Shown: piece after piece, positions 45,177 through 49,539 of the stretch
Layout: each line of letters opens with the position of its first letter
How positions within the stretch are numbered: position 1 is the first letter of the stretch
NCBI RefSeq assembly: GCF_021606685.1
Contig: NZ_WKCB01000003.1
Coordinates: 124,001-188,000, forward strand
From: Pseudomonas syringae
Lineage (GTDB): Bacteria > Pseudomonadota > Gammaproteobacteria > Pseudomonadales > Pseudomonadaceae
Direction: 5' to 3'
Length of the DNA stretch: 64,000 bases
The notes under the pieces: generated by a model
The model's database searches: none
What the model was told of the DNA's origin: nothing
What the model saw: the letters and a program-made list of their open reading frames with translations, nothing else
Translations under genes and position numbers: made by a program

Positions 45177-46119
45177 GGCGATAGTGCGCCGGGGTTCGCT
45201 GGGCGTGTTCCTGGCGATCCTGTTGGGGTTTGCCGTGGCCGCGCCGAATTTTTTGTCGCTGGGTAACCTGGCCAATGTGTTTAGCCAGTCGGCGATCCTC
45301 GGCGTGTTGGCCTTGGGGCTGACCTGCGTGATTATCGGCGGTGGGTCGAATGTGCTGGCGGGCGGGCTCGACTTGTCGCTGGCGGCCAATCTGGGGTTGT
45401 GTGCGGCGGTGTTCAGCCGTCTCAACAACGCCGGCCTGGACCTCTGGCTCACCCTGTTGCTGACCCTGGGCTGCGGCCTGGCGGTTGGTTTTCTCAATGG
45501 CCTGGCGGTGGTGTTGTTGCGCTTGCCGCCGTTGCTGGCGACCTTGGCGAGCATGAACGTGCTGGCCGGGTTGGAACTGGTGCTGACGGAAAACACGGTG
45601 GTCTCCACGGACTCGCCGTTGCTCGATCTGCTCAGCGGTGGGGCGTGGCTGGCGGTGCCGGCGCTGGCGTGGGTGTTGTTGCTGACGGCGGGGTTGCTGA
45701 CCTTGCTGATCCAGCATTCGCCCTACGGGCTGCGCCTGCATGCGGTCGGTGAATATCCCCAGGCGGCCGAAGCGGCTGGCCTGCGCGTACCGGCCTACGT
45801 GTTGTCCAGTTATGCACTGTCGGGCCTGTGCGCCGCGGTGGCTGCGCTGTGTTCGGCGGCATTTTTCAGTGGCAGCACCACGGGCTCCGGCGACATGTTG
45901 CTGTCGGTGGTGGCGATTGCCTTTCTGGGTGTGGTGTTTTCCAGGCGGTTGGTGGCGAGTATCCCCGGCACCTTGCTGGCGGCGCTGTTGATTGGTTTTC
46001 TGATCAATGGCTTTCAATTGCTCAATGTGTCGAGTTTCTGGGTCAACGGCGTGCAAGGCGTGCTGATTTTGCTGGTGGTGGCCGCATCCAGTGCCTTGAG
46101 CCGAGGAGCGCAGTCATGA
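45169..46119 (+). CDS. Sugar ABC transporter permease 1
   Basis: A 316-aa inner-membrane permease of the BPD_transp_2 (RbsC) type with 8-10 hydrophobic helices. It has the EAA-like cytoplasmic region HAVGEYPQAAEAAGLRV, and the typical GLDLSLAANLGL and FLINGFQLLNV segments. The ATG follows GGAGGTGGAAC. It is paired with a second permease, so the channel is probably a heterodimer. Confidence 0.92.
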   Translation: MLEAIVRRGSLGVFLAILLGFAVAAPNFLSLGNLANVFSQSAILGVLALGLTCVIIGGGSNVLAGGLDLSLAANLGLCAAVFSRLNNAGLDLWLTLLLTLGCGLAVGFLNGLAVVLLRLPPLLATLASMNVLAGLELVLTENTVVSTDSPLLDLLSGGAWLAVPALAWVLLLTAGLLTLLIQHSPYGLRLHAVGEYPQAAEAAGLRVPAYVLSSYALSGLCAAVAALCSAAFFSGSTTGSGDMLLSVVAIAFLGVVFSRRLVASIPGTLLAALLIGFLINGFQLLNVSSFWVNGVQGVLILLVVAASSALSRGAQS

Positions 46120-47042
46120 ACCTGCGTGCTGTGTTGCCGCTGACGTTGCCGGCGGTGTTCGTGCTGATCGTCGTGGTGTTTGCGGTGCAGGCGCCGGGGT
46201 TCTTGAGTGCCGGCAACTTGCAAAGCCTGCTGTTGAACAACTTCGTGTTGCTGGCGATTGTCGCTATCGGCATGACCTATGCCGTGGCCGCCGGTGGTAT
46301 CGACCTGTCGGTGGGCACGGCGCTGGATTTCGCCAGTTTCAGTTTTGTGCTGTTGCTTAACGGCGGGCATGGCTGGGCGGTCGCCGTCACGGGCGCGCTG
46401 GGTGCCGGGCTGCTGGTGGGGTTGGTGAATGCGGGCTTGATTGCCGGGCTGCGCATCAGCCCGTTCCTGGCGACGCTGGGCACCTTGTTTATCGGCACCA
46501 GCGCCCAGCAATTGCTCTCGGACGGCGGCCAGCCGATCTACCTGGCCGAGGGGCTGAAGCCCGAGTTTGCAGGCCTGACCCCCTTGTTGGTCGTTTTAGG
46601 GTTGGCACTGTTCTACGGCCTGGCCCTGGCGCGCGGCCGCCTGGGCCGCGAATTGCTTGCGCAAGGCACTCAGCCGCTGCTGGCGTATTACTCGGGGTTG
46701 TCGGTGCGGCGCATCGTCACCGTCGTGGCCCTGGCCACCGCGTTGGCGTGCGCGGTGGCCGGGGTGCTGCTGAGTGCCACGGTCAGCGCCTATGTGCCAC
46801 TGTCCGGCAACGCGTTTTTGCTCAATGCGATTGGCGCGGTGTTTATCGGCACCACCTTGAGCCGGCAGGGCCGCGCGAACATCCCCGGAACCCTGCTGGG
46901 CGTGTTGTTTATCAACGTGATCGCCAACGGCCTGCTGCTGATTGGCTGGAACTTCTACTGGCAGCAGGTGGCAACCGGCGTGCTGATTTTTGTGGTGTTG
47001 GCGTTCAGCTTCGCCAGTCGACGCATGGTTGAGCGCACTTAA
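46116..47042 (+). CDS. Sugar ABC transporter permease 2
   Basis: A 308-aa permease of the same family, with GGIDLSVGTALDF, an ISPFLATLGTLFIG helix and the terminal ANIPGTLLGVLFINVIANGL region (quoted in parts). The EAA loop is less conserved than in permease 1 (GTQPLLAYYSGLSV). The ATG overlaps the previous stop by 4 nt. Last gene of the operon, convergent with the TonB receptor across a REP/duplication region. Confidence 0.92.
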   Translation: MNLRAVLPLTLPAVFVLIVVVFAVQAPGFLSAGNLQSLLLNNFVLLAIVAIGMTYAVAAGGIDLSVGTALDFASFSFVLLLNGGHGWAVAVTGALGAGLLVGLVNAGLIAGLRISPFLATLGTLFIGTSAQQLLSDGGQPIYLAEGLKPEFAGLTPLLVVLGLALFYGLALARGRLGRELLAQGTQPLLAYYSGLSVRRIVTVVALATALACAVAGVLLSATVSAYVPLSGNAFLLNAIGAVFIGTTLSRQGRANIPGTLLGVLFINVIANGLLLIGWNFYWQQVATGVLIFVVLAFSFASRRMVERT

Positions 47043-47101
47043 ATGTGTTTTGGGGCCGCTGCGCGGCCCAACGCGGGCAAGCCCGCTCGCCACGGATGTG
47101 C

Positions 47102-47168
47102 TCAGAATTGATACTGCCCCCGTTCCGGCGTACCACGAGCGCTGCGGTGCAGCCTCGTAATAGCGGCC
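47102..47168 (-). pseudogene. Vestigial C-terminus of a second TonB-dependent receptor
   Basis: The minus strand reads RYYEAAPQRSWYAGTG and then, after a one-base shift, QYQF followed by a stop, against RYYEAAPGRSWYAGAG and EYQF at the end of the intact receptor gene. Nothing else of the gene is present upstream, so this is a leftover of a duplicated or deleted receptor gene. Confidence 0.72.
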
Positions 47169-47176
47169 ATTTAAAC

Positions 47177-47269
47177 CTGTGGCGAGCGAGCTTGCTCGCG
47201 TTGGACTGCGTAGCAGTCCTGGTTTTGGGGCTGCTGCGCAGCCCAACGCGGGCAAGCCCGCTCGCCACG
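47177..47269. repeat. REP doublet, GCGAGCGAGCTTGCTCGCG subfamily
   Basis: CTGTGGCGAGCGAGCTTGC on the left and GGGCAAGCCCGCTCGCCAC on the right flank a centre with two small palindromes (GGACTGCGTAGCAGTCC and GGGCTGCTGCGCAGCCC). A lone right arm recurs at 47067-47096 as part of the direct repeat. It lies between the convergent permease and receptor genes. Confidence 0.8.
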
Positions 47270-47276
47270 GATGTGC

Positions 47277-49358
47277 TCAGAATTGGTATTCGGCGCCCGC
47301 GCCGGCGTACCACGAGCGGCCTGGTGCGGCCTCGTAATAACGGCGGTTGCCGTCGCCGACGATCACTGAGCCGATGTACTGGCGGTCCAGCAGGTTGTCC
47401 AGGCGCAGGGTCTGGTGGAAGGTCCAGTGCTCGACCTTCTGTTCGAAACGCGCGCGCCAGTTGAACACGCTGTAGCCCGGCGCGGCGTGTTGCTGGTTGG
47501 TGTCTTCGACGTAGACCTTGCTGCGGTACATGCCTTCCAGGGCAGTACTGACCCAGTCCCTGGGTTTCCAGTTCAGCTCGGCGAACAGGGTGGTTTGCGG
47601 CACGCCCGGAAGGTAGTTGCCCTTGTCGACAGCGGTACTGCCGCCACTGACGAAGTCGCTGTCATAGGTGGCTTGCAGGCGAGTGTAGGCAAGGTTGGTG
47701 CTCCAGTGCTCGGCCAGCTGGCTCTCGATGCCCAGTTCGAAGCCCCGGCGCAGCGTGCGGCCGGCGTTCTGGTAAGTGGTGCGACCGCCGCTGGATTGCT
47801 GCACCACCAATTCGTCTTCGGTGGTGATCTGAAAGAGCGCCGCGTTCACCCGGGTGTCTTGGCCGACGCGTGCTTTTACGCCGACTTCATACTGCTTGCT
47901 GACCGATGGCTTGAGCGCAAAGTTGAAGCCGTTCGACGTGCTCGAATAGGCCGATTCCGCCTGGGTCGGGGTTTCAAAACCTTTGCCCGCGCTCACATAG
48001 CCGTGCAGGTCAGGGGTGAAGGCGTACATCACACTGACCGACGGCGTGTTCTTCTGGTAGGTCTTCTTGCCGCTGTCGTCGCCGTCGCTGAGGAAGTGAT
48101 CGTCCACCTGCATTTCCATGGTGCTGTGGCGCAGGCCGGCTTGCAGGGTCCAGTCGCCCAGCAGCCAGTTGGCTTGCACGAACGGGTCGAGGCTGGTGGC
48201 GGTGTCGATCTCGTCACGGCCCAAGGCACCTTTGACGCCTTGCACGCTGTTCACGGTGTTGGAATAACCCTGGCGATCATCCTGGCTGCGGTCGTAGTCG
48301 AGGCCGGCGATCAACGTCAGGTCGCCGGGGGCGCTGCTGATGGGTTGCAGCCAGTGGGCGGAGCCGCCGTAGAACTGGCGGTCGAAGGCCACTACGCCAC
48401 CGCGTTTGCCGGCGGGGATAGTGCCTGGAATCGACAGATACTGAATCACACTGCGCCGCCCCGTGTAGCCATTGACCTGCAGCGTCGCATCGCCGAAATA
48501 GTGTTCGTAATTCACGCCCAATTGCTGATGATCGATGCTTTTGCGTGTGTTGTAGGTCAGCGCATTGATGCTTACCGAGCGCGGGTCGGCCTTATAGCCC
48601 TCCCAGGTCTGCCCCAGCGGGTCCTGGGTGCCGTTCTGCTCCAGGCTGCTGTAGATCAGCGCGAGCTTGCTGTCATCATCCGGTTGCACGTTGAGCTTGG
48701 CGAAGGTTTGGTCGCGGCGCGCGCTGCTGTGGTCGCGGTAGCCGTTGGTGTCCATGCGCGAGGCGTCGAGCACAAAACCTGCGCCATTGGCTGCACCTTC
48801 GGCGGTGAGGTGGTTTTTGTTCAGGCCGTCACTGCCCACCAGCGTTTCGGCGCCGATGCGCGGTGGGCCTTCGCCGTCGCGGGAAAACATCTGGATAACG
48901 CCGCCGGCGTTGCTGCCATACAGGGTGGCGGCTGGCCCGCGCAGTACCTCGATGCGCTCGGCGGTGTCGAGGTTGAACGTGGCGGCCTGGCCCTGGCCGT
49001 CCGGGGTGCTGGCGGGGATGCCGTCGGCGATCAGCTTGAGGCCCCGCACGCCGAAGGCTGAACGGGCGCCGAAGCCACGGGAGGAAATCTGCAGGTCCTG
49101 CGCATAGTTCTGGCGGTTCTGCACCACCAGCCCAGGTACGCGGGACAGGGCTTCGGAGGCATTGATGCCCAATTGGCCGTCGCTGATCTGCTCGCGGCTG
49201 ATGCCATCCACCGAGTACGGCAGGTCGAACGTCGGGCTGGCGCTGCGCGAGCCGGTGACCACGCTCGGGTCGAGGACCAGCGTGGCGTCTTCGGCCAGGG
49301 CAGAGGTGCACAGGCCCAGCAACAGCAGGCCAATACGGGTGGGGGCAGAGGGTGTCAT
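47277..49358 (-). CDS. TonB-dependent outer-membrane receptor
   Basis: A 693-aa outer-membrane transporter with a signal peptide (LLLLGLCTSALA before EDATL), a plug domain (about 30-160: VVTGSRSASPTFDLP, ALSRVPGLVVQNRQN, IEVLRGPAATLYGSNAGGVI) and a 22-strand barrel ending in the C-terminal Phe (EYQF). The plug has no signalling extension, so there is no FecR-type transcriptional loop. The ligand is unknown; the sequence is nearer to catecholate/FecA-like iron receptors than to CirA or BtuB by general look, which is weak evidence. No Fur box was seen upstream. I chose the ATG at 49358 for a normal signal peptide; neither start has a strong ribosome binding site. Confidence 0.88.
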   Translation of the reverse strand: MTPSAPTRIGLLLLGLCTSALAEDATLVLDPSVVTGSRSASPTFDLPYSVDGISREQISDGQLGINASEALSRVPGLVVQNRQNYAQDLQISSRGFGARSAFGVRGLKLIADGIPASTPDGQGQAATFNLDTAERIEVLRGPAATLYGSNAGGVIQMFSRDGEGPPRIGAETLVGSDGLNKNHLTAEGAANGAGFVLDASRMDTNGYRDHSSARRDQTFAKLNVQPDDDSKLALIYSSLEQNGTQDPLGQTWEGYKADPRSVSINALTYNTRKSIDHQQLGVNYEHYFGDATLQVNGYTGRRSVIQYLSIPGTIPAGKRGGVVAFDRQFYGGSAHWLQPISSAPGDLTLIAGLDYDRSQDDRQGYSNTVNSVQGVKGALGRDEIDTATSLDPFVQANWLLGDWTLQAGLRHSTMEMQVDDHFLSDGDDSGKKTYQKNTPSVSVMYAFTPDLHGYVSAGKGFETPTQAESAYSSTSNGFNFALKPSVSKQYEVGVKARVGQDTRVNAALFQITTEDELVVQQSSGGRTTYQNAGRTLRRGFELGIESQLAEHWSTNLAYTRLQATYDSDFVSGGSTAVDKGNYLPGVPQTTLFAELNWKPRDWVSTALEGMYRSKVYVEDTNQQHAAPGYSVFNWRARFEQKVEHWTFHQTLRLDNLLDRQYIGSVIVGDGNRRYYEAAPGRSWYAGAGAEYQF

Positions 49359-49539
49359 GAGTAGGCCAAGTCGGTGGCACGACGCGGTTGAGCGGCGTAA
49401 GCGCAAAAAAATGCGAGTTTAACCACTCGCTGTCCGTTTGTTTATCAGGAATGTTCCTACGCAAAGTGGCGTTGCCGGTAGCTGGGAGCGGGGGCGCGGC
49501 GGTGATAGCTTCTTGGGCTGTTCAAACGGAGCGCAAAGC

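Follow-up and report, generated by a model that had tools for sequence, protein, structure and literature searches.

A probable short tandem duplication of a gene tail and a REPIN behind a TonB-dependent receptor gene of Pseudomonas syringae

The receptor-permease gap and its direct repeat

The window considered here is a stretch of 64,000 nucleotides from a Pseudomonas syringae genome (contig NZ_WKCB01000003.1, positions 124,001 to 188,000), in which a gene for a TonB-dependent receptor and one for an ABC-transporter permease converge. The gap between them holds a second copy of the receptor gene end and a REPIN, a non-autonomous element that belongs to the REP family and folds into a hairpin. 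The parts of the locus, in window coordinates and from the receptor towards the permease, are as follows.

47277..49406, minus strand: intact TonB-dependent receptor gene, 709 aa (ORF; Pfam PF00593, TonB_dep_Rec_b-barrel, 1.3e-49; PF07715, Plug, 7.9e-20)
47277..47344, minus strand: repeated gene tail in its live copy, the final 68 nt including the stop (direct repeat)
47269..47276, minus strand: 8-nt spacer from the stop to the REPIN, identical in both copies (sequence comparison)
47179..47268, minus strand: complete REPIN, whose two REP arms lie inverted to each other and make up a single long hairpin (inverted repeat, DNA fold, REP family found genome-wide)
47168..47178, minus strand: 11-nt spacer, the junction of units 1 and 2 (the 11 nt preceding the repeated tail)
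47102..47167, minus strand: orphan (fossil) receptor tail, with 11 substitutions and a 2-nt deletion relative to the live tail (direct repeat, alignment)
47094..47101, minus strand: second copy of the 8-nt spacer (direct repeat)
47053..47093, minus strand: single REP arm, apparent remnant of a second REPIN, agreeing with arm 1 of the first REPIN at 39/41 sites (direct and inverted repeat)
45828..47042, plus strand: convergent ABC-transporter permease gene bounding the array (ORF; Pfam BPD_transp_2, 3.7e-21), its start taken from a mechanical ORF listing, the true start probably lying further in

Read in the direction of the receptor gene, the order is therefore the receptor tail, its stop, 8 nt, a full REPIN, 11 nt, the orphan tail, the same 8 nt, a single REP arm and the end of the convergent permease gene at 47042. 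What recurs is the final 68 nt of the receptor gene, followed by the 8-nt spacer and a single REP arm. A repeat scan of a 1.5-kb region returned two adjoining direct-repeat pairs, one of 67 nt at 96% identity (47047-47113 and 47222-47288, spacing 175) and one of 57 nt at 81% (47111-47167 and 47288-47344, spacing 177), the runner-up in the same region being 28 nt long at 75%. Self-BLAST joined both pairs in a single match of 123 nt (47047-47167 against 47222-47344; 87.8% identity, 152 bits), whereas the top self-match in 100 dinucleotide-preserving shuffles of the region scored 30.1 bits. The preliminary description, which had placed a frameshifted recurrence of the receptor tail together with a REP arm 175 nt away, was thus correct as to observation, coordinates and frameshift, and the identity of the YYEAAP..RSWYAG region, which it had named beforehand as the point on which the reading could fail, is significant. 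With regard to the accompanying REP arm, the distal copy is indeed a single arm (47053-47093), but between the tails lies a complete two-armed REPIN (47179-47268). An assembly artefact was also considered and is unlikely, since the copies share just ~88% identity and the contig around them is 189 kb long.

The inverted arms of the REPIN at 47179-47268 are 88% complementary, and its DNA fold has a predicted energy of -45.4 kcal/mol (z -11); the distal unit, with one REP arm only, falls outside the two-armed definition of a REPIN. The two arms of the complete element are unlike, one carrying GAGCGGGCTTGCCCGC and the other GAGCGAGCTTGCTCGC; doublets of mixed REP type are described as rare in PMC3116915. 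The genome contains at least 125 matches to the REP region, with 40 of 365 candidates scored, and the REP copies are extragenic at the clusters inspected.

Divergence of the tails and the site in relatives

Over the 68 nt of the tail, the orphan copy differs from the live one by 11 substitutions (11/66 aligned sites) and a frameshifting 2-nt deletion, while the REP parts of the two units differ at 2/41 sites only. Three of the orphan-tail substitutions hit sites that are identical in 36/36 relatives, which implies that the orphan tail is under no coding constraint. Certain third-position differences are instead changes in the live gene, the orphan keeping the state that is commoner among relatives. 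As the tails have diverged more than the REP parts (11/66 against 2/41), a two-unit model must add either conservation or homogenisation of the REPIN.

The orphan tail was searched for in 398 genomes of the genus and matched in 67, of which 66 have one copy and only the present genome has two, live and fossil. No genome with two receptors, both above 36% identity, was present among the matches listed in a search of 194 relatives. A convergent receptor-permease pair was recovered at eight loci, six of them distinct by gap sequence, a ninth (L020) being excluded for a match over only 62 bases. The gap lacks any REP in two relatives (13 nt in L047, 20 nt in L091), is 191 nt long with a single REPIN and no tail copy in L102, and contains REP remnants within 140-196 nt in L109, L094 (= L043) and L138 (= L042). 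A second tail appears in 0/6 of these distinct gaps, where the only matches, 7-13 nt long (E 0.2 or worse), were at chance level. Arranged in order, the relatives' gaps would fit a path from a gap without REP, through the arrival of a REPIN, to a local duplication; no intermediate with two near-identical units was found at this locus. A strain with two full receptors at the site, which the preliminary description had proposed to look for, was found neither among the 67 tail-matching genomes of the 398 nor in the six distinct gaps.

REPIN clusters at other genes of the genome

Ten loci with tandem REPIN units and repeated flanks were examined, that is, the window locus and nine further ones. 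In 8/10 clusters, a count drawn from 20 regions picked for listed REP matches together with the window locus and two loci from a REP-spacing search, the repeated flank includes the 3' end of the adjacent gene, and these genes belong to unrelated Pfam families. Besides the TonB receptor of the window, they encode an NAD-epimerase (L071, three units), a GNAT protein (L072), CobN (L073), an ApeI-like/AMP-binding protein (L074), FecR (L087, three units), an MFS protein (L088) and an MCP (L090). The copied gene tails measure 30-128 nt across the eight clusters. L181 and L184 are the exceptions without a gene tail: judged by eye, their flank falls outside the neighbouring ORF or is a terminator-like hairpin. 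Two loci were not counted (L075, with just two unlike REPINs at 70%, and L004, whose sole match, of 49 nt, falls in a short-period repeat), and self-comparison of L005, L006, L007 and L010 showed no direct repeat.

The recurrence of short units with the tails of unrelated genes indicates that what is duplicated is a REPIN with 30-130 nt of gene end. The gene survives every time because the gene-proximal unit stays in one piece with the rest of the gene. In the eight clusters the REPIN starts 4-82 nt past a stop and the units extend tens of nucleotides beyond the REPIN; given this geometry, gene ends may be captured without any special targeting. With regard to the junctions, a microhomology of ~7 nt, read by eye, is seemingly common to both in L074, the only cluster in which it was seen.

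Several further arrangements were observed. At L087:3964-4466 (contig C147 of the same genome), the FecR tail and REPIN occur three times, the tails with a 6-nt deletion and the REPINs practically identical. The tandem unit at L184:1385-1712 (contig C135) comprises one REP arm and a GC-rich hairpin with a T-run, an apparent multiplied terminator, and at L004:1397-1505 (contig C138) a 12-nt unit (TGTGGCAGTACC) that begins like a REP end is repeated several times directly before a REPIN. An exact search for the REP-spacing pattern was positive in 2/298 genomes, the present one and G244, probably because other species have other REP classes. In G244 (locus L178), a mixed REPIN occurs in four tandem units. 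It is bordered on one side by a T-run resembling a terminator and on the other by what seems to be a convergent ORF end, apparently included in the repeat.

The difference in divergence between tail and REPIN recurs across clusters. Coding tails differ at 43/603 aligned sites and REPINs at 15/974, about five-fold less (Fisher p 2e-8), in counts whose boundaries were set by hand and in which three-unit array copies, treated as independent in the test, share a first unit and are non-independent. The rate is higher for the tail than for the REPIN in 10/10 comparisons from 8 clusters, the second REPIN of L090 ending at the stretch boundary with six bases, four of them aligned; a looser earlier alignment gave 48/697 for tails and 15/974 for REPINs. 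Either selection-based conservation or homogenisation by gene conversion would be sufficient to account for the low REPIN divergence. It is conceivable, though we would put it forward only tentatively, that the 3' ends of adjacent genes are routinely picked up by REPIN clusters, that the unconstrained tails serve as a neutral clock, and that the REPINs, changing about five times less, are maintained by selection or by gene conversion among themselves, which would be measurable per cluster. The value of such co-duplicated tails is that they provide an internal control for the strength of REPIN conservation after duplication.

One RAYT was found in the genome (NF047646, 151.5 bits), which is a draft assembly of 164 contigs. 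At the RAYT locus (L189:1300-2100, contig C83), the flanking REPs are GTGGGAGGGGGCTTGC and not of the cluster-forming GTGGCGAGCGGGCTTGC class. A role of RAYT in the duplication at the receptor locus is not supported, since the sole RAYT found sits among REPs of the other class, and the GTGGCGAGCGGGCTTGC class may lack a transposase of its own in this draft.

Origin of the duplication and comparison with known systems

Taken together, these observations make it very probable that the locus is a two-unit tandem REPIN cluster that arose by a short duplication of the gene 3' tail and the REPIN. A REPIN would have settled 8 nt past the receptor stop, in the gap to the convergent permease gene. A short tandem duplication of this REPIN and ~68 nt of receptor gene end would have followed, most likely through replication slippage or a template switch at the long hairpin, or else through an exchange between short homologies; later units would have been added by unequal exchange. 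The gene-proximal copy is still attached to the gene body and the receptor is intact, whereas the distal tail, with neither start codon nor function, has decayed; the distal REPIN would have lost one arm. The repeat and its decay, the single receptor and the empty or REPIN-bearing gaps of the relatives, and the recurrence at seven other genes are direct observations, while both the order of these events and the molecular mechanism of the duplication are deduced from the present arrangement. Points against this account are the greater divergence of the tails than of the REP parts, the missing intermediate, the single REP arm of the distal unit and the different REP class beside the RAYT.

The preliminary description had instead proposed a tandem duplication of the receptor together with a REP, followed by the deletion of nearly all of one copy. 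A whole-receptor duplication would leave the same repeat, and a distal tail downstream of the intact gene is as expected from it, but it requires a second large deletion ending exactly at a REPIN, two receptors were found in no relative searched, and tails of similar length lie at unrelated genes in seven other clusters of the genome. A tandem duplication involving the REP and a subsequent decay can accordingly be retained from that proposal, while the copying and near-total deletion of the whole distal receptor is highly improbable in view of the single tail in 66/67 genomes, the 0/6 gaps with a copy and the short units at unrelated genes. By the same token, the locus can no longer be regarded as a fossil of receptor gene turnover: no second receptor was found in the relatives, the same architecture occurs at unrelated genes, and REPIN clusters with repeated flanks are known (PMC3116915). 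Turnover through a displaced receptor was dropped, as no two-receptor genome was found and the relatives' gaps have no tail copy, and so was a mobile element that integrates, restores the gene 3' end and displaces the old tail, as nothing but a REPIN separates the tails and three-unit arrays are found at other loci.

A replacement of alleles, in which an incoming receptor allele recombined in with its own REPIN and left the end of the displaced allele as the distal tail, is a little less improbable, yet still unlikely. In its favour, the base that most relatives carry is found in the fossil but not in the live gene at some sites (codon 1 G in 22/36 relatives, codon 2 C in 30/36), third codon positions account for 8/12 of the substituted bases in the relatives' alignment, and the fossil is slightly closer than the live tail to two relatives of the same layout (0.86 against 0.83 for L138, 0.83 against 0.80 for L094). 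Nevertheless, the two tails are about equally distant from these nearest relatives, which would follow if a simple duplication was succeeded by drift in the live gene too, and the 8 nt next to the stop are identical. Furthermore, the same architecture is found at many genes, and the three units at L071 and L087 better suit repeated local amplification.

The repeat is thus real and ordinary, of a kind already described, and the receptor-turnover reading should be dropped. On its own it is a minor feature, a decayed by-product of local REPIN amplification, but it carries a warning for annotation, as orphan gene tails beside REPs are no relics of genes that have been lost.

In Salmonella, tandem duplications of the histidine transport genes reportedly have REP sequences at the join point. 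The present locus would resemble that case in that REP sequences promote a tandem duplication, although whole genes are said to lie between two REPs there, while here the unit is one REPIN and a gene end only. Enterobacterial BIME tandem arrays are similar in that palindromic units are locally amplified between genes. BIME units consist of REPs and linkers and are not known to contain gene tails, in contrast to the unit described here, which includes one. BIMEs are mentioned in PMC2817692. According to PMC8049555, REPINs are often in tandem and open to local amplification or deletion, as in a five-copy deletion in E. coli.

The closest parallel is found in P. fluorescens SBW25, for which Bertels and Rainey (2011; PMC3116915) report 16 ordered clusters in which REPINs are tandemly repeated 'including the flanking sequences', each unit reading f1-REPIN-f2 (Figure S7 legend). 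A statement that the f1 flanks are gene ends was not found in the searched passages of that paper or in the other literature searched. The receptor locus shares with the SBW25 clusters at least two tandem units of flank and REPIN, the species complex and the order of magnitude of the unit spacing, 175 nt at this locus. A repeated flank on at least one side, as in the SBW25 type, is present (the 68-nt tail and 8-nt spacer), while of the second, shorter flank f2 only ~5 nt align after the REP, the loss of the arm obscuring the comparison. Unlike in the SBW25 clusters, which are described as nearly identical, the distal REPIN here is one-armed and f1 is a coding gene tail at ~83% identity.
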